Origin: Candidatus Krumholzibacteriota bacterium
Lineage (GTDB): Bacteria > Krumholzibacteriota > Krumholzibacteriia > Krumholzibacteriales > Krumholzibacteriaceae
Direction of reading: 5' to 3'
Assembly: GCA_030609325.1 (NCBI GenBank)
Contig: JAUWCL010000002.1
Location: forward strand, 1-64,000
Length of the DNA stretch: 64,000 nucleotides
A program made the position numbers and the translations under genes. The notes under the pieces were generated by a model that was not told where the DNA came from, made no database searches, and saw only the letters and a list, made by a program, of their open reading frames with translations. Shown piece by piece: positions 13,408 through 35,333 of this stretch (its first letter is position 1; each line of letters opens with the position of its first letter).

Positions 13408-14313
13408 ATGCATTTAAATGTGTTGCCGACCTGGATTCTCAGGATCACCGATCATGTGTTATTGATCGCGCTGCTTCTGGCTGTACTACCCGCTGCCGTG
13501 AGTCCCGCCGACCCGGAACCGCTCATCCTCGCCATCCACCCCTACCTCCCATGTGGCGAGCTTATGGAGCGGTTTACACCACTCGCCGAATATCTTTCCG
13601 GCAAACTTGACCGCCCGATCAAAGTCCGGATAGGGACTGATTACAGGGAACACGCTATAAACATCGGCGACGGGGCTGTCGATATCGCCTACGTGGGGCC
13701 GGCCGTCTACGTTACCGTCGTCGAGAGGTACGGGGCGCATCCGCTGCTAGCCATGATCGAGACGGGAGGCACTCCCGACTTCACCGGCAGGATCGTCGTC
13801 CGTGACGACAGCCCCGTCACTCAAGTATCCGAATTGCGCGGGAAGGAGATAGCCTTTGTCGACCCGAATTCGACCATGGGTTACCTCGTGCCGATGTACA
13901 TACTCACCCGGGACCTGGATAAGGAGGATGTTCTGAGGAGCTCGAGATTCCTCGGCAGCCATATCAATGTGGCGCTGGGAGTCCTTGCCGGGGATTTCGA
14001 CGCCGGCGCGGTGAAAGAGGAGGTCTTTTTTCTTTACCAGGACAGGGGTTTCCGGGAGCTCGCATCGACTCCGAAAATACCCGAGCATATCTTTATCGCC
14101 CGGAAAAATCTGCCCCCTGAGATCGTATCGGGATTGAGGAAGGCGTTGCTCGATCTGAGCGGGAGCGAACCGGGCAGGCGGATCATGAATAACATCAAGA
14201 AAGACATGACCGGTATGGTGCCGGCGAAGGACAGCGATTTCGACGTGCTTCGAGTGATATTGAGGTCTCTTGAAGAAGCCGGGAATTCGGATGAAACAGA
14301 AAAAAGCAGATGA
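13408..14313 (+). CDS. PhnD/SsuA-type periplasmic phosphate/phosphonate-binding protein
   Basis: 301 residues with an N-terminal signal sequence ('DHVLLIALLLAVLPAAVSPA'). The mature part is a PhnD-type binding fold ('LAIHPYLPCGELMERFTPLA', 'AVDIAYVGPAVYVTV', 'VSELRGKEIAFVDPNSTMGY'). Such proteins bind phosphonate, phosphite or phosphate for ABC import, but no permease or ATPase is nearby. It overlaps the start of a membrane hybrid histidine kinase, so it probably acts as the periplasmic ligand-binding part of a signalling system. Confidence 0.82.
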   Translation: MHLNVLPTWILRITDHVLLIALLLAVLPAAVSPADPEPLILAIHPYLPCGELMERFTPLAEYLSGKLDRPIKVRIGTDYREHAINIGDGAVDIAYVGPAVYVTVVERYGAHPLLAMIETGGTPDFTGRIVVRDDSPVTQVSELRGKEIAFVDPNSTMGYLVPMYILTRDLDKEDVLRSSRFLGSHINVALGVLAGDFDAGAVKEEVFFLYQDRGFRELASTPKIPEHIFIARKNLPPEIVSGLRKALLDLSGSEPGRRIMNNIKKDMTGMVPAKDSDFDVLRVILRSLEEAGNSDETEKSR

Positions 14314-16354
14314 AAAGGGACTGAAGTACTGGCTCGGCCTGATCGTCGTCGTATGCGTTCTGATCGCGATATCGATCGTGATCGTAAGCAGGAAAAAACA
14401 GACCCTGCTTCAGCAGGAACAGACCCGCGCAAGAAGCGACCTGGTCTTCATATCGAATCACGTTCATTCTCTCCTTCAACTGAACGATTATGACGGCATC
14501 GAACCCTATTTACAGGCCTGGGCGGGACTTCACAGCGACAGGATCGCCGAATTGAGGGTCACAGTCGCCAACGGTTTTGTGCTGACTCACATCGCGCGGG
14601 ACACGCTGCCCGCCCGGATCCATGAGACAAGCGTGATGGTCCCGTATTCCTACAACAATCATGTCCTGCTGGAGCAGACCACGGATCTGTCTTCCGTTGA
14701 CCGGGCGATGCTGAATGATATAAAGACACTTGGTCTCATCATAGTACTCTCGACGCTTGCGATGGGATTTATCCTGTGGCTGGCCCTCAAAAGGCATTCA
14801 GCCGCCGTCGCCCTCCATCTGCAGTCGGAAGAGCTGAACAAGCTGTCGATCGCCATAGAACAGAGCCCCGTCGCGATCATGATGACCGATATCGACGGGA
14901 CGATCGAGTATGTCAATCCCCGCTACAGAGAGCAGACCGGCTATGCGATGGACGAGATCATCGGCCGCAATCCACGGATTTTCAAATCGGGAGTGACGAC
15001 GGACGAAGAATACGGGGATTTGTGGGAAACGATCCTGAATGGCCGGATATGGCGGGGCGAGTTTCTCAATGTCCGTGCAAACGGCGAACAGTACTGGGAA
15101 CAAGCCGCTATCGGACCGGTCAAGAACGAGGACGGGATCATCACCCATTTCATCGCGTTCAAAGAGGATATCACCGAACAGAAATCCCTGAGGGAACAGC
15201 TGCTCCAGGCCCAGAAACTCGAGGGGATCGGGAAGCTGGCCGGAGGGATCGCTCACGATTTCAACAACTTCCTTTCCGTGATCAACGGGCATACGGAGCT
15301 TGCCTTGCTCAACATGGACATGGATGAATCCGTCCACGCGGATCTCGTCCAGATCTCGAAGGCCGCGCAGAACGCGGCGGTCCTGACGCGGCAGCTCCTG
15401 ATGTTCAGCCGCAGACAGGTCATCGAGCCGAAGGTCATCGATCTCAATGCCCTGATCACGAACATGAACATGATGATAAGGCGCCTCATCGGGGAGGATA
15501 TAACCATCACGCTCGATCTCGAAAAAGACATCTACCCGATCAAAGCGGATCCGGGACAGCTCGAGCAGATCTTCCTGAACCTGATAATCAACGCGAAGGA
15601 TGCGCTGAACCGAAAGACTTCTCCCGCCGGCGTAAAGAAGATCACCGTCGAGACTTCCGGGTTTTATCTCGATGCAGATTACGTATCGAGACACATGGGC
15701 AGCAATATCGGTCACCACGTCCTCATCGCCGTCAGCGACAACGGGATCGGCATGGATGCCGGGACAAGAAAAAGGGTGTTCGAGCCGTTCTTCACCACGA
15801 AGGAGCACGGCAGAGGGACTGGATTGGGCCTCTCTATGGTCTACGGCATCGTGAAACAGAACAACGGGATCATTTCCGTCTACAGCGAGCCGGGCCTGGG
15901 AACAACTCTCAAGATCCTGTGGCCCTGTGAGATCGATGCGGAACTGTCTGAACTGTCCGAGGTGGATGAGGCGGAGATACGGGGCGGCGACGAGACGGTC
16001 CTCGTCGTGGAGGATGACGAGGATGTCTGCGAGATGGTCTGCAGATCGCTGAAACGTTATGGATATGATATCCTGAAAGCGTCGGGCGGCCGGCAGGCCA
16101 TAGAGATCGCACGATCGGGAAAGAAAATCGACCTGCTGCTCACCGATGTCGTCATGCCCGTCATGGGGGGCACGGAACTGGCCGGGGAGCTGAAGAATAT
16201 CGTCCCCGGCCTGAAGGTGATATTCTGTTCGGGATATACGAACAATCACATCCTGAACAGGGAGATCGTCGAGGAAAGGATCCATTTCATCCAGAAACCA
16301 TACGCGCCGGGAACCCTGGCGAGAAAAGTACGAGCGGTTCTGGACGGGAACTGA
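14291..16354 (+). CDS. hybrid sensor histidine kinase (PAS-HisKA-HATPase-REC)
   Basis: 687 residues from ATG 14291 (an ATG at 14270 is less likely). Order: TM1 (about 14-34), short periplasmic loop, TM2 (about 146-166), PAS (about 185-295, 'IMMTDIDGTIEYVNPRYREQ'), HisKA with phospho-acceptor His about 322 ('LAGGIAHDFNNFLSVI'), HATPase ('DNGIGMDAG', 'GRGTGLGLSMVYGIV') and a C-terminal receiver ('ETVLVVEDDEDVCEMV', 'LLLTDVVMPVMGG'). The start lies inside the PhnD-type gene, so they are translationally coupled. It probably senses the liganded binding protein; no separate output regulator is adjacent. Confidence 0.88.
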   Translation: MKQKKADEKGLKYWLGLIVVVCVLIAISIVIVSRKKQTLLQQEQTRARSDLVFISNHVHSLLQLNDYDGIEPYLQAWAGLHSDRIAELRVTVANGFVLTHIARDTLPARIHETSVMVPYSYNNHVLLEQTTDLSSVDRAMLNDIKTLGLIIVLSTLAMGFILWLALKRHSAAVALHLQSEELNKLSIAIEQSPVAIMMTDIDGTIEYVNPRYREQTGYAMDEIIGRNPRIFKSGVTTDEEYGDLWETILNGRIWRGEFLNVRANGEQYWEQAAIGPVKNEDGIITHFIAFKEDITEQKSLREQLLQAQKLEGIGKLAGGIAHDFNNFLSVINGHTELALLNMDMDESVHADLVQISKAAQNAAVLTRQLLMFSRRQVIEPKVIDLNALITNMNMMIRRLIGEDITITLDLEKDIYPIKADPGQLEQIFLNLIINAKDALNRKTSPAGVKKITVETSGFYLDADYVSRHMGSNIGHHVLIAVSDNGIGMDAGTRKRVFEPFFTTKEHGRGTGLGLSMVYGIVKQNNGIISVYSEPGLGTTLKILWPCEIDAELSELSEVDEAEIRGGDETVLVVEDDEDVCEMVCRSLKRYGYDILKASGGRQAIEIARSGKKIDLLLTDVVMPVMGGTELAGELKNIVPGLKVIFCSGYTNNHILNREIVEERIHFIQKPYAPGTLARKVRAVLDGN

Positions 16355-16795: not shown

Positions 16796-18181
16796 TCAGC
16801 CCGAATTGCCGTAATCGGCCATGCCGTACGACTTGAGCTTGTTCTGCAGGGTACGCCTGCCGATGCCAAGGGCATCGGCGGCCTTCGTGCGGTTGCCGAC
16901 GAATTTATCGAGCGCCGCGATGATCGCCTGTTTCTCTATTTCCCGCATCGGGCGGACCTGGAATTCCAGCTTCCCGGTCGCGGACTGCTGGAGAAGTATT
17001 TTGACGTCATCCGCCGATATCGTGGTTCCGGACATCGTGATCGCGAGCCGCTCCACGAAGTTCTTCAGCTCGCGCAGGTTCCCCGGCCACGGGTAATCTA
17101 CCAGGACGGCGATAGCGTCCTCGTCGATCCCGGCGACTCTCCCGCGGCTGCCGCCGGAGCTGATCCGCAAGAAGTATCTCGCCAGCTCGGGGATGTCTTC
17201 CCTCCTGTAGCGCAGCGGCGGCAGTGTAATCGGAAACACGTTGAGGCGGTAGTACAGGTCCTCCCTGAACCTGTCCTCCTCCATCAGCTTCTCGATGTGC
17301 TGGTGCGTGGAGGCGATTATCCTCGCACGGCTGTACTGAACCGTTTTCCCTCCCACCTTCTTGAACGATCCGTCTTCGAGCACGCGCAGGATCTTGGCTT
17401 GCAGATCATGATTCAGATCGCCTATCTCGTCGAGGAGCAGGGTGCCGTTGCCCGCCGTCTCGAAGACCCCCACATGGTCGGAGATCGCGTTGGTAAAGGA
17501 ACCCTTGACGTGCCCGAACATCTCGCTCTCCATCAGCTCCCGCGGTATCGCCGCGCAGTTCGCCACAACGAAGGGCCTCTCCCTCCTCGACGAGAGCCGG
17601 TGGATCGCGCGAGCGATCACCTCCTTTCCTGTCCCCGTCTCCCCGCGAAGGAGCACGCTCGTATCGGAATCGGCCACGCTGCGGACGAGCTCCATGGCCC
17701 TTCGCAGCCCGGTCCTCTCGCCGATTATCGCAGTGAAGGGCTCGTCGGCCGCACGTCTCAGATAATCGACCTCTGTGCGCAGCTGAATACTCTCTATGGC
17801 CCTCTTTACGAGAACCCCGAGGCGCTTGAAATCAAGAGGTTTCGTGATGAACTCGTAGGCGCCTTCTTTGATCGCCTCGACAGCCATGTCGATCGTGCCG
17901 TGGGCGGTCATCATGATCACCGGCACGGACGGGAATCGGTCCCGGATCCGCCTGAGCCCCTCGAGGCCGCTCTGGTCGGGAAGGAAAATATCGAGCAGCG
18001 TGAGCTGGCAGCTCTCCCGCTCGAGCGCTTCAATTGCCTCGGCGAGGCTCGAGGCCTGACTGATCCTGTACCCCGCAGCAGCGAGACGGTCGGACAGTAT
18101 AATCCTAAGGTTCTCGTCATCCTCGACGACCAGAATCCTTGCTGCATCGTTATGTCCGTTTTCAGGCTGGTTCATATTCAA
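16796..18181 (-). CDS. sigma-54-dependent NtrC-family response regulator
   Basis: 461 residues: receiver (about 15-130, phospho-acceptor D64 in 'LTLLDIFLP'), AAA+ domain ('RGETGTGKEVIARAIH' Walker A, 'LLLDEIGDL' Walker B) and a Fis-type helix-turn-helix ('NRTKAADALGIGRRTLQNKL'). Such proteins activate sigma-54 RNA polymerase when phosphorylated. The L1 loop reads GSFTNA where the sigma-54-contacting motif is usually GAFTGA. The gene lies downstream of, and on the same strand as, the 1415-residue sensor kinase, which is its likely partner, with 279 bp between them. MTM-type alternatives at the start (M1 or M3) are both possible. Confidence 0.9.
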   Translation of the reverse strand: MNMNQPENGHNDAARILVVEDDENLRIILSDRLAAAGYRISQASSLAEAIEALERESCQLTLLDIFLPDQSGLEGLRRIRDRFPSVPVIMMTAHGTIDMAVEAIKEGAYEFITKPLDFKRLGVLVKRAIESIQLRTEVDYLRRAADEPFTAIIGERTGLRRAMELVRSVADSDTSVLLRGETGTGKEVIARAIHRLSSRRERPFVVANCAAIPRELMESEMFGHVKGSFTNAISDHVGVFETAGNGTLLLDEIGDLNHDLQAKILRVLEDGSFKKVGGKTVQYSRARIIASTHQHIEKLMEEDRFREDLYYRLNVFPITLPPLRYRREDIPELARYFLRISSGGSRGRVAGIDEDAIAVLVDYPWPGNLRELKNFVERLAITMSGTTISADDVKILLQQSATGKLEFQVRPMREIEKQAIIAALDKFVGNRTKAADALGIGRRTLQNKLKSYGMADYGNSG

Positions 18182-18460: not shown

Positions 18461-21400
18461 TCAGGCGGGCAGCGTGAAGGTGATGACCGCGCCTCCTGCC
18501 GGAGAGCCCATCAACAATATCGAGCCTCCGTGGAGCTCGACGAGCTGCTTGACGATCGTGAGCCCCAGTCCGGCCCCACGCTTTCCCTTTGATCCCGCGG
18601 GGCTTGAATGGAACGGCTCGAATAATCTGGACGCATCCTCCTCCGATATCCCCGGCCCCTCGTCGCTGACCGAGATCTGCAGCATGCGCCGTCCGTCCGT
18701 CCCGTCGACCGGGACATCGTCGATCCTGATCTCGATCGTCCCACCCTCGGGCGAGTGCCGCACGGCGTTCGAGACGATGTTGTTGAGTATCTGCCAGACC
18801 CTCGTCCTGTCCCCCTGGACGATAGTCTCCGAAGAGCCGACGGTCAGCAGACCCGTTATTCCCTCCTTCTCGAGGAGGGGCTGGATGGAACGCAGCAGGT
18901 CCTCCGCTTCATGCCGCATATCGAGCGGCTCGATATCGAGGATCAGTCGGCCGCTCTCGATACGCGAGAGGTCGAGAAGATTGGTTATCATCCTCTGCAG
19001 GTCGCCGCTGCTCTTCATGATCATTTCGAGGTATGTGCGCTGGCGGCCGGTCACAGGACCGGTGACCTCCTCGAGGATATTCTCCGCGGCTCCCCTTATC
19101 GACGAGAGCGGTGTCTTCAGATCGTGGCTGACCATCGATATGAAACGGCTCTTCAGCTCGCTTACCTCCTCGACCTTCTGCTTCTCGGCGAGTCCCCTGA
19201 TCGTCTCTTCGAGGCTGGCCGCCATCGAGTCGAACGAGCGCGCGGCCAGTCCGATCTCCGACTGCCCCGTTTCCCCGAGACGGTACTCGAGGTCGCCCTC
19301 CCCCACGCGCCTGATCCCTGTAAGAAGGTGGGTCAGCGGCCGGGCCGTCCTTTTGAAGGTCGTATACGCCCCCCAGAACGACAGGCCGAGCGGCAGAAGG
19401 ATCAGAAGGATCACCGGAACGAGGACGCGCAGCATCTCGCCGCCGGCCGGTATGTACGCGCTGGCCCTGTAGACCACCCAGCGCGGCCTGCCCGAGTACC
19501 AGCCGCGTGCCTGGAGGACCAGTTCGCTGCTGTACGGTAAATACCAGCCCTCCGGACGGCTCCTGTCAGCGGTCGATTCGAGCCAGACCGGCTCGAGATG
19601 GACACGCGGAAGGAACGGAAGGATACGCAGGCGCTCCTCGATTTCTCTCAGGACCTTGTCGTCGATCGGGATGTGACTGACGATCTGCGCCTCGAGCGTC
19701 CTGGTCCGGAAGGTCCGCATCGCCCGGATCACCGCCGTTCCATTGTCAAGGAAGAGGCCCTTGATATTATCCCCGCCCGTCCATGCAGGCCTGGTGGAGT
19801 AGAGCTTGCCCGTTCGCGGAGCCCTGTAGGAATACCCGGTGAAATACCGGTCGGGATCCTCCCTGTCGTGAGCCCAGAGCGTCAGGTAGGCCGACGGCAG
19901 ATCGTAGTTGAACAGACACTGGTTTTCCCCTACGAAGTTCAGCCAGCTCGTCTCGGTGGACTGGTCGAGCAGATCAGGTCCGCTCTTCGTCAGCTCGCTC
20001 CTGAATCTCCTGTTACCCATGTACGAGAGGACCATATTTTCCGCCTTCGACTCCAGGCCGCCGATGGTCTTCTCTATGACGTCACGCTGAACGCCGAGGA
20101 AGAGATTCCCGCCAACGATTATGATCACCGACAGCGGGATGAGGCTGACGATGAGGTACGATCCGAGCAGGGCAAAGTTCAGCCGCCGGCTCCTGCGCGA
20201 GGTAGCAACGCGATGCAGCACCACTACGACGCCGGTGATGCCCAGCATGTGCACAAGGACCTCGAGCGTACGGCCAGATGCCGTAACGGGGCCCGTTTCG
20301 AGCCTGCCGCGATGAAGAAGAACGGTTCCGGCGACATAGAGTGCGCCGAAGGCGATTATCCACCACCACCTCAATCCCACCCCCTTCCTGTCCCTCTGCC
20401 GTCTGGAGACCAGCAGATAGATGCACGGCAGGATGAGGACGGCCGCCAGATCAAGCCACTGCGAGAGCGGTCTTTCGAAATCCTCCTTCGCCAGAAGGAT
20501 CATCAACCGCGATCCTCCCGGGGACTGCGTTACCTCCATCTCCTTCGAAGGCTGCACGATGCCGAGCCACGGACGCAGGCTGCGGTACGGCCTGGGACCT
20601 GCGCCGCCCCACGCCAGCGTTTTCCCGTCGATGCGGATGTGCGCCGAGAAACCGGTGGCATCGGCTATGTCATTGGGAACTTTGTTGAGCAGGCTCGATA
20701 AAAGGAAGAACCGCAGCGTATCCTCCCCGGCGACGACGGACCTGCTCTCCGCCGCATAGACGGGAATATCGTCCAGCAGGATCGGATCCATGGCGCCGCC
20801 TCCCGAGAGCCCCAGCTCGGAGAGATCGGTCCAGCCCTTCCCGAGCCCGACTCCCTGTATGACGCGGCCCGTCCTGTCGGCCAGCAGGATACCGCCGAAT
20901 CTGTATTCGAGACGGTTGCGGTCGGACAGCCGCTCCAGACAGCGGAGAGCTCTGAGGGGATCCTTGAGATCGCCGGCCCGGCGCGGACTCAGGTCGGCGG
21001 CGAGTTCGTCGGCCAGAACCTGGACCTTCCGGCGTTCGTTCATCATCACGGACCGGGCCACCGATTCCGCGTCCGCCAGCCCGTCCATCGTCGTCCTGTA
21101 CCTGTACAGATCACCGGCAAAGAAGAGCGCCCAAATCACGAGGACCAGAAGGAAAAAGACAAACGCCCCGCGAAGCCGCCTGCCGGGAGAATCGGAGTAT
21201 CCGGTCAGCTCCATCCTGAGCAGGTCCACGAGGAGCACAAACATCGCCACAATCGCCAGCAAAACGGTGAAGTAGATCGGAGGCCATTCCTGCCAGCCGC
21301 GTGTATTCATCGGGCTGCCGGCGACCTTCGCGGGCCGGATGGGGTCGAGATGCCATGCAAACACGGTCTCCCCGAGCTGTCCGACGACGAGTTCCTTCAT

Positions 21401-22708
21401 GCCCTCACCGTCGAGCTGCGCGAGCGCCAGCCCCTGCACTATGAAATCTTCGAGGACGACCGGCCATCCGGGAACGGGCGTTCCGTCCAGCTCGAAGCAG
21501 TAGAGGTGATGATCGTAGCACCCCAGTATCACCTCCTGCTCGCCGTCCCCATCCACGTCGGACGTGATCGGCGGGCCGTACACTATGTGTTTCTCCTGCT
21601 CTTCAGGGAGGCCGTATATGAATCCGTCGAGACGGACCGGCCATCCCGGCAGCAGCCTTCCCTCCAGATCCCAGATGTAAACGTAGCCATCAAGGGTGGA
21701 AGTCATCAGGAGATCGGCCTTCCGGTCCGGCTCTCCCCTGGATGAAAGAAACCAGGGCGCCGTGGGAATCCTGCCGTCCCGGCTTAAATGTGAAAGCGAT
21801 ATGACGCTGTCGCCTTTCAGGTCGTAAAGGAACATCTCGTTTCTGGTCGTGCACGCGATGTACCGCGGACTCGCTCTGTCGTCTACTGCAAGACCGAGCC
21901 CTAAATGATCTCCCATCGCAACGGGAAATCCCGGATATTCCGTCCCGTCCATATACCAGGCATAGATAAATGCCGGCCATGAAGTCAGGTGAAGTATCTC
22001 CGGTGACCCGTCCCCATCGAGGTCAGCCGCCCATGCAGCATGTCTGTCATAATGTCCGGCGAAAGTCCTGTGCGGAAGCGTTTTCGGCCATCCCTTTCGG
22101 CACATGCCCTGCGGGGAAAGGAGGTGAACGACACCGGGCTCGACGGAAACGAGTATCGAGGCGTCATTCGACGACGTCCGGCGGACCAGTATCGGTGCGG
22201 AAATCGATTTGCCCTTCAGATCCAGGGGCCAGCCGCTCACGATGCTTCCGTCCTCGCGCCACATATGCAGGAAGCCGTCGATGCTCCCCGCAGCTATCTC
22301 GTATCCGCCGTCGCCGTCGACGTCGGCCAGCAGCGGGCCCCGGGCTATCCAGGCGGCGGTCTCCCTCGGCCAGCCCGGAAGCATCCTGCCGCCCGCGTCG
22401 AGAAGGAATACCCGGCAGTCCCTCACGCCGACGGCGATTTCGTCCCTGCCGTCGCCGTCGATGTCGGCCACCGCGGGCGTGTACCTGATAGCGTTGTCGA
22501 GAATGACGGGCCAGTTCCTCACCGGGCGCGGGCCGGCCGGGACGATGCGCCGTACCTGATCGGAGGAGGCGTCGCGTATCTGCGCCGCGGCTGCAGTCCG
22601 GACCGAAAGAACGAGGACGATGAAGGCTGTCAGAACAGACACCGCAACGTGCCGGGACCGCCCGGAAACGGCGGCTCGTCCTGACTTATGACGGGACGGA
22701 GAATACAT
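18461..22708 (-). CDS. giant sensor histidine kinase with FG-GAP beta-propeller sensor region
   Basis: 1415 residues. A signal-anchor ('VAVSVLTAFIVLVLSVRTA') is followed by a region (about 55-470) with repeated FG-GAP/Asp-box motifs: 'DIDGDGRDEIAVG', 'DVDGDGGYEIAAG', 'DLDGDGSPEI', 'DVDGDGEQEVILG'. This should fold as a beta-propeller outside the inner membrane. Then come several hydrophobic helices (two near 480-540, more near 740-880), a second extracytoplasmic segment, HAMP (about 1120-1170), HisKA with His about 1195 ('SMVSHDLKTPLSS') and HATPase ('DEGPGISEED', 'GAGLGLTIVKQLVELH'). Catalytic motifs look intact. The ligand is unknown; propellers of this kind bind calcium and often glycans or proteins. 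The NtrC-type regulator downstream is the likely target. Confidence 0.88.
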   Translation of the reverse strand: MYSPSRHKSGRAAVSGRSRHVAVSVLTAFIVLVLSVRTAAAAQIRDASSDQVRRIVPAGPRPVRNWPVILDNAIRYTPAVADIDGDGRDEIAVGVRDCRVFLLDAGGRMLPGWPRETAAWIARGPLLADVDGDGGYEIAAGSIDGFLHMWREDGSIVSGWPLDLKGKSISAPILVRRTSSNDASILVSVEPGVVHLLSPQGMCRKGWPKTLPHRTFAGHYDRHAAWAADLDGDGSPEILHLTSWPAFIYAWYMDGTEYPGFPVAMGDHLGLGLAVDDRASPRYIACTTRNEMFLYDLKGDSVISLSHLSRDGRIPTAPWFLSSRGEPDRKADLLMTSTLDGYVYIWDLEGRLLPGWPVRLDGFIYGLPEEQEKHIVYGPPITSDVDGDGEQEVILGCYDHHLYCFELDGTPVPGWPVVLEDFIVQGLALAQLDGEGMKELVVGQLGETVFAWHLDPIRPAKVAGSPMNTRGWQEWPPIYFTVLLAIVAMFVLLVDLLRMELTGYSDSPGRRLRGAFVFFLLVLVIWALFFAGDLYRYRTTMDGLADAESVARSVMMNERRKVQVLADELAADLSPRRAGDLKDPLRALRCLERLSDRNRLEYRFGGILLADRTGRVIQGVGLGKGWTDLSELGLSGGGAMDPILLDDIPVYAAESRSVVAGEDTLRFFLLSSLLNKVPNDIADATGFSAHIRIDGKTLAWGGAGPRPYRSLRPWLGIVQPSKEMEVTQSPGGSRLMILLAKEDFERPLSQWLDLAAVLILPCIYLLVSRRQRDRKGVGLRWWWIIAFGALYVAGTVLLHRGRLETGPVTASGRTLEVLVHMLGITGVVVVLHRVATSRRSRRLNFALLGSYLIVSLIPLSVIIIVGGNLFLGVQRDVIEKTIGGLESKAENMVLSYMGNRRFRSELTKSGPDLLDQSTETSWLNFVGENQCLFNYDLPSAYLTLWAHDREDPDRYFTGYSYRAPRTGKLYSTRPAWTGGDNIKGLFLDNGTAVIRAMRTFRTRTLEAQIVSHIPIDDKVLREIEERLRILPFLPRVHLEPVWLESTADRSRPEGWYLPYSSELVLQARGWYSGRPRWVVYRASAYIPAGGEMLRVLVPVILLILLPLGLSFWGAYTTFKRTARPLTHLLTGIRRVGEGDLEYRLGETGQSEIGLAARSFDSMAASLEETIRGLAEKQKVEEVSELKSRFISMVSHDLKTPLSSIRGAAENILEEVTGPVTGRQRTYLEMIMKSSGDLQRMITNLLDLSRIESGRLILDIEPLDMRHEAEDLLRSIQPLLEKEGITGLLTVGSSETIVQGDRTRVWQILNNIVSNAVRHSPEGGTIEIRIDDVPVDGTDGRRMLQISVSDEGPGISEEDASRLFEPFHSSPAGSKGKRGAGLGLTIVKQLVELHGGSILLMGSPAGGAVITFTLPA

Positions 22709-22734: not shown

Positions 22735-22886
22735 GCATATCTGGAATGTTTCCTGGGCGGAACTGCCCGGCTTTCCCCGACATCAGATAGTCCTTTCGAG
22801 GCAGAGCTGTTCGGCAGCGTCAAGGGAGCCTACACCGGCTCTGTCAAGACGCGTGCGGGAAAGTTCAGGGCGGCCGACGGCCTACT
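22735..22886 (+). pseudogene. fragment of a sigma-54 activator AAA+ domain
   Basis: One plus-strand frame reads 'NVSWAELPG', matching the usual 'VNCAALPE'; about 15 bases later a second frame reads 'SPFEAELFGSVKGAYTGS' followed by 'AGKFRAADG', the GAFTGA-loop region of sigma-54 activators. The order and spacing match an AAA+ domain with small deletions and a frameshift; nothing before or after remains. It ends at the stop of the convergent ParA gene. Confidence 0.55.
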
Positions 22887-23832
22887 CGTTCGAGATCGAC
22901 GAGGAAGACTCGCTGACCACGCCGGGTATCTCGTTCGCGTACAACTTCTGATCGCCCGCGGGGGGACTCAGTATTTCGGCGTTGCTCGTGATCACGCCGC
23001 GTTCGACGGAGAACAGCGTATTGGCAGCGGCGATCCGCCCCATGATCTCGAGCGATAGATTCATGTAGTCCTCCATCCCGAAACTTCTGGGGCGGTAGCT
23101 GAAGATATCCTTCCCGAACCGCGGCGACTCGGCGAGGACGATGTTTTCCCTGATGACCGTGTCGAAAAGGAGCGCGCCGTACTGTTGCCTCAACGCCTCT
23201 ACGACAGTACGGCTGAGTACTTTCCTGCCGTCGTATCGCGTCGCGATGAGCCCGCCTATTGTCAGGTCGGGATTCAATTCCGTCATCACCGACTCGATCT
23301 TCTCCATCAGGCTCTCGAGGCTCTTCAGGGCGAGATATTCCGTCTGGACGGGGATGAAGACCTTCCTCGAGGTGACGAGCGCGTTTGTCGTGACAAGCCC
23401 GAGGCTCGGGGGACAGTCGAACAGGATATAGTCGTAATCGTCGTTGATCCTCGCGATGGCTCTCTTGAGCAGATGCTCCCTCTCGAATGTGTTGGCGAAG
23501 GCCGTGTCGGCTTCGGCCAGGTCGCGTGAGGAAGGGATCACCGAGAGCGAGAGCTGTGATTCGCTGCCGCCGATGAACAGGCGCGCCCTCAGGGGCTTTG
23601 TGATGATCGCCTCGCGCGGATGGACCCTTCCCCGCAGGATGTCGTAAATCGTGTAATCGACCTCGTTCGATTCGATACCGAGGAAGTCCGCCAGATGACC
23701 CTGGGGATCGAGATCGACGATGAGGACCTTCCTGCCGAGGATCGTAAGTCCCGCGCCGACATTCACCACCGACGTCGTCTTGCCGACCCCACCCTTCTGA
23801 TTAAGAAACGCTGCTGTCTCTGATTGATGCAT
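22882..23832 (-). CDS. parA: ParA/Soj-family partition ATPase
   Basis: 316 residues. Deviant Walker A 'NQKGGVGKTT' (11-20) with the signature lysine, switch 'LIVDLDPQGHLADFLGIE' and 'ILFDCPPSLGLVT'. ParA ATPases move DNA or protein cargo by ATP-driven nucleoid binding. The start ATG at 23832 follows GGGAGGG. No parB or parS-like site is visible nearby, so the cargo is unknown; the orphan could also belong to a MinD/ParA-type positioning system. The C-terminal tail 'SESSSSISNE' is short and unconserved. Confidence 0.85.
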   Translation of the reverse strand: MHQSETAAFLNQKGGVGKTTSVVNVGAGLTILGRKVLIVDLDPQGHLADFLGIESNEVDYTIYDILRGRVHPREAIITKPLRARLFIGGSESQLSLSVIPSSRDLAEADTAFANTFEREHLLKRAIARINDDYDYILFDCPPSLGLVTTNALVTSRKVFIPVQTEYLALKSLESLMEKIESVMTELNPDLTIGGLIATRYDGRKVLSRTVVEALRQQYGALLFDTVIRENIVLAESPRFGKDIFSYRPRSFGMEDYMNLSLEIMGRIAAANTLFSVERGVITSNAEILSPPAGDQKLYANEIPGVVSESSSSISNE

Positions 23833-32780: not shown

Positions 32781-32942
32781 CCATCTGGCCCCGGCATCTG
32801 CATGCAGAAACACGGCCCGCTGATTCGGTGGCAACGACATCCGGCACCCTTTCGGTTGGCCTCCTGCTCGATCAAGCTGGGCAGGATCCGACCCGAACAG
32901 CGTCTTTCTTTTATTACCCTCATATGTTATAATGAGTTATGT

Positions 32943-35333
32943 ATGCAGACATGGAGATCCATAACTATCGCCGTCCTGGTACTCGCCGTCCTGTCCACCG
33001 CGGCGCTTGCCGACGTGACCGTGACGTACAGGTTCGCCGATCCGGCGGTCGAGAGCGTCGACGGCGGATTCTCGCGAATCGTCTTCCCCGCCACCATTCA
33101 GGCGGGAAAGTCGGGAGAGCCGAGTTTCCCGTTCAGGGGCGCAGCCGTGCTGCTGCCGCCAGGCGAGGCGGCGGTTTCCATCCGGGTCAGGAGGCGCGGC
33201 TGGAAGGTCATACAGCAGTCGGTGAGACTCTGTCCACAGCAGGATCCCGTGCCGGGGAGCAAAGAACCACCACATGCAGGCCTCCCCGCAACCGGGCCGG
33301 TGCAGCCGGGGAAACGTTTTCTCTTCAAGGCGGATGTCTACGCGCAGGACCGCTGGATCCACCCTCCCGCTCCGAAGTTCAGGACCCGCTACCTGCGGGG
33401 GCACCCGGTCGCTACGGGGAGCTTCTCCCCTGTCGGGCACAATCCTGCCACGGGAGAGGCTGGATACTATTCCGAGGTCGAGATAACGATCGAGACGGGG
33501 ACTTCGGCGGAATCCGCCGCCGCATCGAGACTGCTGCGCCGCGACGCGGCGACCCTTGCAAGGCTCGCCGCCCTCGTCGACAACCCTGCAGCGCTGCCCG
33601 CGGCCGACGAGTCTGCCTCTGCCGGTGACGGATACGAATATCTCATCATCACTCGAGAGAACTACGAGGACGACCTGTCGCCGCTGAAGGATTTCTACAA
33701 CAGGCGAGGGTTCCGAACGGCGATCATGACCGTTGAGAACATCGACCTGAACTACTCGGGGCTCGATCCCGCCGACGAGATACGCCGGGCGATCCTCGAC
33801 GCGTATATCGACGAGGGCGTCACCCACGTCCTGCTCGCCGGCGACAGCGACAACGGGCCGTATGACCTGCCTCACCGCGGCCTGTACTGCGCCGTCCAGT
33901 CGTCCAGCCTCTACGAGGACGACGGCATCCCCGCCGACCTCTACTACGCATCGCTCGACGGCGACTGGAACACCGACGGCGATACCCTCTGGGGCGAGCC
34001 GGGCGAGGAAGACTTCTACTCTGAGGTCGCCGTCGGCAGGATCACCTTCGACGACGAAGCCGAGGCCGCCGCGGTGATCGCCAAGATAACAATGTACCAG
34101 GAATCCCCCGTCGTATCGCAGTGCGACGACGCGCTGATGCTCGGCGAGCACCTGTACAGCGACCCGCTCACATACGGCGGCGATGAGATGGACCAACTGA
34201 TCGGCACCTGGGCGATCCACGGCTTCACGACTACCGGTATCCCCGCCTCGTTCGACATCACGAAACTCTACGACCGTGATATAGGCTCTTGGGACGAATC
34301 GCATATCTACGCGCAGTTCAACAACGGGACCGGCATCGTCTGCCACGCGGGGCACTCGAACTACGGTTACGTCATGCGGATGACGACCGGCGACATCACA
34401 ACAGCCAATTTCACCAACGACGGCGTCACGGCTAATTTCCCCGTAATCAACTCCTACGGGTGCAACGCCGGAGGATTCGACTACAACGACTGCATCGCCG
34501 AGGAGATGCTCACCCTGGCAACCTGTGCGTCTGCCTTCGTCGGCAACTCGCGCTACGGATGGTTCCACGAGGGGACGACGAACGGCCCTTCCCATCACTT
34601 CCAGCGCGAGTTCTTCGACGCGATATTCACCGAGGGGATCACCACTCTCGGCGAGGCGTACGTGCGGTCGAAGGACGAGACGGTGCCGTTCATCGACCTT
34701 CCGGACGAATACGAGCCCGGCGCCCACCGCTGGTGTTTCTACTGCCTCAACGTGCTCGGCGATCCGGCGATGGACATATGGACCGGGCAGCCCTCGGCGA
34801 TCGCGGCGGCCCACGAGCCCGGAATCGACCACGACGCACTCGATTTCACCGTCGAGACCGACGCCCCCGGCTCGGTCGGCGCACTCTACGAAGACGGTAC
34901 CTGCTTCGGTACGGGGACAGCCGCGCCTGACGGGATAATCACCATATCGCTCGTCGACACGATCCCCGGGGCGATCGATTCGCTGGACCTCACCGTCACC
35001 GGGCACGACAGGCTCGTATACAGGTCGCGAATAGCCGTCACGGATTACTCCGGGACTGAGGACCGCACACCGCGCCTCGCCCTCTTCCAGAACTCGCCCA
35101 ACCCGTTCAACCCCGCGACGACGATCCGCTTCACGCTGGGCCGGGCGGGGCATGTCGACCTGCGCGCTTACGATGTCGCCGGCCGCGAGGTCGCCATCCT
35201 CGCCGGCGGAACGATGGAAGCAGGTATCCACGAGATCGCGTGGAACGCCTCGGGCCTCTCGAGCGGCGTCTACTTCTATGTCCTGCGAGCGGAGGGGAGA
35301 ATGGTCAGCCGGAAGGCCGTCTTGCTGAGATAA
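32943..35333 (+). CDS. gingipain-type C25 cysteine protease with sorting domain
   Basis: 796 residues from ATG 32943 (frame open upstream to 32802 but the internal Met begins a clear signal peptide, 'ITIAVLVLAVLSTAALA'). A propeptide is followed by the C25 catalytic domain with His about 468 ('IVCHAGHSNYG') and Cys about 507 ('INSYGCNAGGFDY'). The last about 85 residues are a FlgD-like/type IX sorting domain ('LFQNSPNPFNPATTIRFTL' to 'GRMVSRKAVLLR'). The protease is therefore expected to be exported across the outer membrane or attached to the surface. It is a single gene with no type IX machinery nearby. Confidence 0.88.
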   Translation: MQTWRSITIAVLVLAVLSTAALADVTVTYRFADPAVESVDGGFSRIVFPATIQAGKSGEPSFPFRGAAVLLPPGEAAVSIRVRRRGWKVIQQSVRLCPQQDPVPGSKEPPHAGLPATGPVQPGKRFLFKADVYAQDRWIHPPAPKFRTRYLRGHPVATGSFSPVGHNPATGEAGYYSEVEITIETGTSAESAAASRLLRRDAATLARLAALVDNPAALPAADESASAGDGYEYLIITRENYEDDLSPLKDFYNRRGFRTAIMTVENIDLNYSGLDPADEIRRAILDAYIDEGVTHVLLAGDSDNGPYDLPHRGLYCAVQSSSLYEDDGIPADLYYASLDGDWNTDGDTLWGEPGEEDFYSEVAVGRITFDDEAEAAAVIAKITMYQESPVVSQCDDALMLGEHLYSDPLTYGGDEMDQLIGTWAIHGFTTTGIPASFDITKLYDRDIGSWDESHIYAQFNNGTGIVCHAGHSNYGYVMRMTTGDITTANFTNDGVTANFPVINSYGCNAGGFDYNDCIAEEMLTLATCASAFVGNSRYGWFHEGTTNGPSHHFQREFFDAIFTEGITTLGEAYVRSKDETVPFIDLPDEYEPGAHRWCFYCLNVLGDPAMDIWTGQPSAIAAAHEPGIDHDALDFTVETDAPGSVGALYEDGTCFGTGTAAPDGIITISLVDTIPGAIDSLDLTVTGHDRLVYRSRIAVTDYSGTEDRTPRLALFQNSPNPFNPATTIRFTLGRAGHVDLRAYDVAGREVAILAGGTMEAGIHEIAWNASGLSSGVYFYVLRAEGRMVSRKAVLLR

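Follow-up and report, generated by a model that had tools for sequence, protein, structure and literature searches.

What kind of sensory system is encoded by a gene whose product joins a beta-propeller outside the membrane to a histidine kinase inside it, and where does its signal go? Such a gene lies in the 64-kb window (the whole stretch of DNA analysed here) of a genome of Candidatus Krumholzibacteriota, a phylum known here only from metagenome assemblies. The preliminary description presented its product as a 1415-residue sensor kinase with a propeller of about 400 residues, membrane helices, a second outer segment, HAMP and a kinase core. All these parts were recovered by Pfam, hydropathy and alignment. 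We consider it probable that the kinase gene and the adjacent gene of an NtrC-type regulator form a two-component system, in which the propeller kinase acts through this regulator on sigma-54 promoters.

Domain organization of the kinase

The features of the locus are the following (window coordinates; domain borders in residues).

18461..22708, minus strand: sensor histidine kinase (propeller kinase), 1415 aa (ORF call, Pfam, alignment)
22583..22708, minus strand: N-terminal signal peptide, residues 1-42 (hydropathy; putative cleavage)
21344..22540, minus strand: FG-GAP beta-propeller, residues 57-455, eight repeats (Pfam, hydropathy, AlphaFold, fold matches, alignment)
21113..21277, minus strand: membrane helices 1 and 2, residues 478-532 (hydropathy)
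20465..21109, minus strand: second extracytoplasmic domain, residues 534-748, outside any Pfam family (hydropathy)
20114..20464, minus strand: membrane helices 3-6, residues 749-865 (hydropathy; putative helix at ~782-802 from model and topology)
19433..20113, minus strand: third extracytoplasmic domain, residues 866-1092, outside any known family (alignment)
19364..19432, minus strand: membrane helix 7, residues 1093-1115 (hydropathy, alignment)
19199..19363, minus strand: HAMP domain, residues 1116-1170 (Pfam)
18950..19153, minus strand: HisKA dimerisation/phosphoacceptor domain, residues 1186-1253, with His1195 in FISMVSHDLKTPLSSIRG (Pfam, alignment)
18467..18814, minus strand: HATPase_c domain, residues 1299-1414 (Pfam)
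16796..18181, minus strand: NtrC-type response regulator with receiver, sigma-54 AAA+ and Fis HTH domains (Pfam, profiles, alignment)

The kinase ORF starts with ATG and is intact, with no internal stop. Five Pfam families matched above cut-off (FG-GAP_3, 4.6e-13; FG-GAP, 8.4e-8; HAMP, 1.6e-10; HisKA, 8.3e-19; HATPase_c, 1.3e-28), and the same five were found in all six aligned family proteins. Between the propeller and HAMP of the kinase no Pfam family matched. Since the phosphoacceptor histidine of HisKA and the HATPase_c domain are both intact and above cut-off, the protein is classed as a transmembrane histidine kinase of the HisKA type. The predicted signal peptide has a hydrophobic core at residues 21-39 and an AAAA motif before Gln, and is poorly conserved in the family alignment. 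No RNA elements were found at the kinase region.

The FG-GAP propeller

The propeller was assigned to PF13517 and PF01839, both above cut-off, and eight repeats can be distinguished by sequence, most of the blades ending in GWP or GFP. It had been described as an Asp-box propeller, and this label has to be dropped: the SxDxGxTW motif occurs nowhere in the protein. By sequence, the motif is instead the DxDGDG calcium loop of the FG-GAP/integrin type, with four canonical copies at residues 82, 129, 229 and 384 and a degenerate one near residue 432.

Structural prediction, which had been proposed for residues 50-900, returned a propeller fold matching solved propellers at E ~1e-10. This is essentially the sole confident part of the AlphaFold model; seven blades were built with pLDDT mostly 55-87, and the eighth, clear by sequence, was left unplaced. 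Fold matches among propellers are unspecific: a Foldseek search with the propeller model retrieved more than 1000 solved chains at E <= 0.001, among which KICSTOR, BBS1 and BamB as well as designed propellers ranked high. The nearest solved relative by sequence profile is the Vibrio matrix protein Bap1 (6mlt), followed by ITFG2.

Across the six alignable family members, with identities down to 43%, 29% of the propeller positions are invariant. Conservation is uneven: blades 1, 7 and 8, which surround the ring closure beside the membrane anchor, show 65-66% identity, and the remaining blades span 44-56% (44-48% for blades 3, 5 and 6). We infer that contacts with other parts of the protein may hold the ring closure near the anchor in place, the variable blades facing outside.

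Membrane module and outer domains

Six strong membrane segments were detected in the hydropathy scan (478-496, 514-532, 749-767, 817-835, 847-865 and 1093-1111), and AlphaFold adds a low-confidence helix at ~782-802. The number of membrane helices is most likely seven, since without this helix the kinase core would not lie inside. With this helix counted, the loops near 768-780 and 836-846, which carry positive charge, would be located inside and the N-terminus outside. Three outer regions follow from this topology, namely the propeller, residues 534-748 and residues 866-1092, rather than the two extracytoplasmic regions given previously.

Neither of the two further outer domains was recognized by profiles. 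The second gave dCache_3 at E 0.25 only; the third matched no Cache profile, and a fold search started from its low-confidence model was not significant. The AlphaFold models of both are poor (pLDDT mostly <50). Mean pairwise identity in the six family members is 49% for the second domain and 56% for the third, the latter equal to the propeller (56%), as compared to 66% for helix 7, 66% for HAMP, 82% for HisKA and 62% for HATPase.

The position of the third domain, directly before helix 7 and HAMP, together with its conservation, raises the possibility that it is the actual sensor, the propeller serving instead to dock the kinase onto an envelope complex, much as BamB docks on BamA. The strong conservation of blades 1, 7 and 8 around the ring closure and the presence of BamB structures among the fold matches would fit such a role, but fold matches among propellers are unspecific, as noted above, and profile and fold searches recognized no known sensor family in the third domain. 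We regard docking as possible, though somewhat doubtful.

It should be mentioned that the same genome encodes another giant polytopic histidine kinase (1622 aa; L103 1715-6580, G000:C52) with ~14 predicted membrane helices, outer regions outside any Pfam family, HAMP, PAS and an NtrY-like kinase core. It resembles the propeller kinase in having many helices and outer domains followed by HAMP and kinase, and brief stretches of similarity occur at HAMP and at the helix that precedes the last outer domain, but it differs in the lack of a propeller, in its 14 predicted helices and in its PAS domain. Homology of the two membrane modules was rejected as not significant (profile comparison, probability 1.5%).

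Distribution in Krumholzibacteriota

To describe the distribution of the kinase, we used a sample of about 80 Candidatus Krumholzibacteriota genomes (counts are stated out of 78). The kinase is present in seven of them, the source genome (G000) and six others; G000, G001, G002, G003, G004 and G019 belong to one family and G037 to another. The G001 copy is cut off at a contig edge; the family alignment includes six members. The kinase is conserved end to end in other genomes at 43-87% full-length identity, far beyond chance. It is distributed patchily: three genomes of genus g2 are devoid of it, although some of these are incomplete. A GTDB-wide pattern scan, which rests on two short motifs and is compatible with distant relatives elsewhere, retrieved only four of the same relatives and one unrelated propeller protein. 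The latter, a planctomycete match (L055), was rejected, being a 383-aa propeller protein and not a kinase.

A profile built from the membrane module and its two outer domains found the same seven genomes and otherwise one weak match (E 2e-5, in a 208-aa frame). Thus, in the sampled phylum the membrane module and the two outer domains occur only together with the propeller. This bears on the idea that the protein is an ordinary large sensor kinase which has acquired an FG-GAP module from secreted proteins, the module having no sensory role. FG-GAP propellers do occur in secreted sorting-domain proteins of the same genome, e.g., in a C25 peptidase with a FlgD/Por tail, and the 1622-aa kinase does without a propeller; on the other hand, the retention of the propeller in 6/6 alignable members, with its invariant positions, and the fact that the membrane module is never seen without it make a passive acquisition very improbable.

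The NtrC-type regulator and neighbouring genes

The pairing with an NtrC-type regulator, also part of the preliminary description, proved to be real and strictly conserved. The regulator is the next gene downstream of the kinase in 7/7 carrier genomes, the orthologues of the six others being 62-88% identical to it; in the source genome the gap between the two genes is ~280 bp. A regulator this similar (E <= 1e-140) was found in 7 of 78 genomes, exactly those that carry the kinase, so that adjacency and co-occurrence are both 7/7. This genetic linkage argues for a conserved, co-inherited two-component pair.

Assignment to the NtrC type follows from the receiver, the AAA+ motifs, GxFTxA and the Fis HTH, all of which are kept in the orthologues. 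Four orthologues have GAFTGA as their sigma-54 contact loop and one has GSFTGA; the source genome and its sister read GSFTNA, which departs from the GAFTGA loop but retains Phe and Thr.

Apart from the regulator, none of the tested neighbours around the kinase is conserved beyond the genus. The ParA-type ATPase gene upstream of it (22882-23832, minus strand) adjoins the kinase elsewhere only in G002, of the same genus, and a functional link between the two was rejected, since a single same-genus genome shares the adjacency. The neighbouring DUF885 gene is adjacent to the kinase in none of the other carriers.

Two other signalling loci were noted. A ParA-like ORF also adjoins the gene of a 1423-aa fusion protein (L104 1123-5391, G000:C33). 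The fusion combines HATPase_c_2, HAMP and SpoIIE phosphatase with three STAS stretches, so that a single chain holds an entire partner-switching module. In the window, at 13408-16354 (plus strand), the gene of a PhnD-like phosphonate-binding protein is directly followed by that of a PAS hybrid kinase with receiver. The same two genes stand side by side in L032, and they probably represent a binding-protein-coupled sensor.

Sigma-54 sites

RpoN is encoded in 76/78 genomes, the source genome included. A search of the latter with the strict pattern TGGCRYRNNNNTTGCW gave seven places, as compared to two for the reversed pattern; no sigma-54 site was found by pattern search of the kinase-regulator region. 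Sequences closely similar to the best strict sites are also present in relatives that do not carry the kinase, notably the site upstream of rpoN, and the strict sites were therefore rejected as targets of the kinase system and give no lead to its regulon. One of them precedes a GAF-GGDEF gene followed by genes resembling nucleotide-sugar and polysaccharide-chain genes. Such a site would suit the connection with secreted-polymer genes suggested earlier, but in view of its recurrence without the kinase it is not tied to the latter. With strict sites so few, the best of them recurring in this way and none at the locus, the suggested connection was not borne out.

The rpoN-upstream site deserves separate mention. 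In the source genome it lies at L109, minus strand, 5254 (G000:C39, 10738), and the operon order there is lipid A acyltransferase, LptC, ABC ATPase, rpoN, one ORF and HPF. A co-directional sigma-54-type site 2.3-3.5 kb upstream of rpoN was found in 7/7 kinase carriers and in 13/19 other genomes, at least four of the six others without it having too little upstream contig. RpoN autoregulation is known from other phyla (PMC12316311); our data suggest that sigma-54 autoregulation extends across the phylum and is coupled to LPS export.

Proposed mechanism

The two-gene system outlined above builds on the domain order, the intact catalytic motifs, the strict pairing with the regulator and the presence of RpoN, all as read from the sequences. 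The exported kinase would place an eight-bladed calcium-loop propeller in the periplasm, where two membrane helices would tether it to a polytopic module that carries the other two outer domains. Most likely, the pair senses an envelope or extracellular partner. This partner, a glycan or a protein, may bind the propeller and/or the membrane-proximal third domain and thereby alter the packing of helix 7 and HAMP, which would set the autophosphorylation of His1195. The phosphate would then pass to the NtrC-type regulator encoded next to the kinase, and the AAA+ domain of this regulator would open sigma-54 promoters elsewhere in the genome. For the topology details, the ligand class, the direction of signalling and the target genes we propose this scheme as inference.

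A more far-reaching and quite speculative version, to which we assign a low probability, is a surveillance system: the propeller, borrowed from secreted FG-GAP proteins, would monitor secretion or surface assembly and control a sigma-54 regulon via the two new outer domains. If this is true, two-component systems would gain a new class of extracytoplasmic input.

Comparison with known systems

Among known kinases, the HAMP-HisKA-HATPase core is common to PnpS/MtrB/WalK-type kinases, and MtrB and PnpS were the best NCBIfam matches of the kinase core, all far below equivalog cut-offs. Kinases of this type generally carry no more than one short outer domain, and their partners are mostly OmpR-type regulators.

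The nearest relatives of the propeller in the phylum by sequence are secreted FG-GAP proteins with FlgD/Por tails. They share the repeat family and the DxDGDG loops, but are enzymes or adhesins with neither membrane module nor kinase. Two peptidases of the C25 family were recorded in this connection: a gingipain-type one with propeptide and Por secretion tail in the window (32802-35333, plus strand), and one combining C25, FG-GAP and FlgD/Por (L106 541-5535). Together they suggest that Krumholzibacteriota have a type IX-like secretion system.

As stated in the preliminary description, kinases with periplasmic propellers are already known from the hybrid two-component systems (HTCS) of Bacteroides, where a large beta-propeller sensor is likewise carried by a membrane histidine kinase (PMC3243724). 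HTCS, however, contain two 7-bladed Reg_prop propellers and a YYY domain, with the entire phosphorelay, including a fused receiver, in one chain (PMC3243724), whereas the Krumholzibacteriota kinase has one FG-GAP propeller and a polytopic module with two additional outer domains, and its NtrC-type regulator is encoded by a gene of its own. Neither Reg_prop nor Y_Y_Y was detected at E <= 0.01 in any of the six family members, and the kinase ends at its HATPase domain, with no fused receiver or AraC output; its membership in HTCS was rejected on these grounds. The same differences weigh on a glycan-sensing role modelled on HTCS, with an oligosaccharide binding the propeller and inducing polysaccharide-use genes. 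There is precedent for propeller kinases that bind complex oligosaccharides, and in HTCS the target locus is usually adjacent (PMC3243724), but no carbohydrate-use locus is conserved beside the present kinase. We thus consider such a role unlikely.

The claim that an FG-GAP kinase with an NtrC-type regulator is unusual finds support within the sampled phylum and the literature searched: its propeller family and architecture differ from those of HTCS, and we found no description of an FG-GAP histidine kinase in the literature searched, which is weak evidence as few subscription papers were covered. The probable two-gene system adds a propeller family undescribed on histidine kinases in that literature and two outer domains unrecognized by profiles, and leaves the general picture of two-component systems unchanged. 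The propeller kinase is a real and conserved, apparently undescribed variant of a common type of sensor. With its regulator it forms a compact, conserved and co-inherited pair that would be a convenient test object for propeller signalling through a polytopic membrane module.
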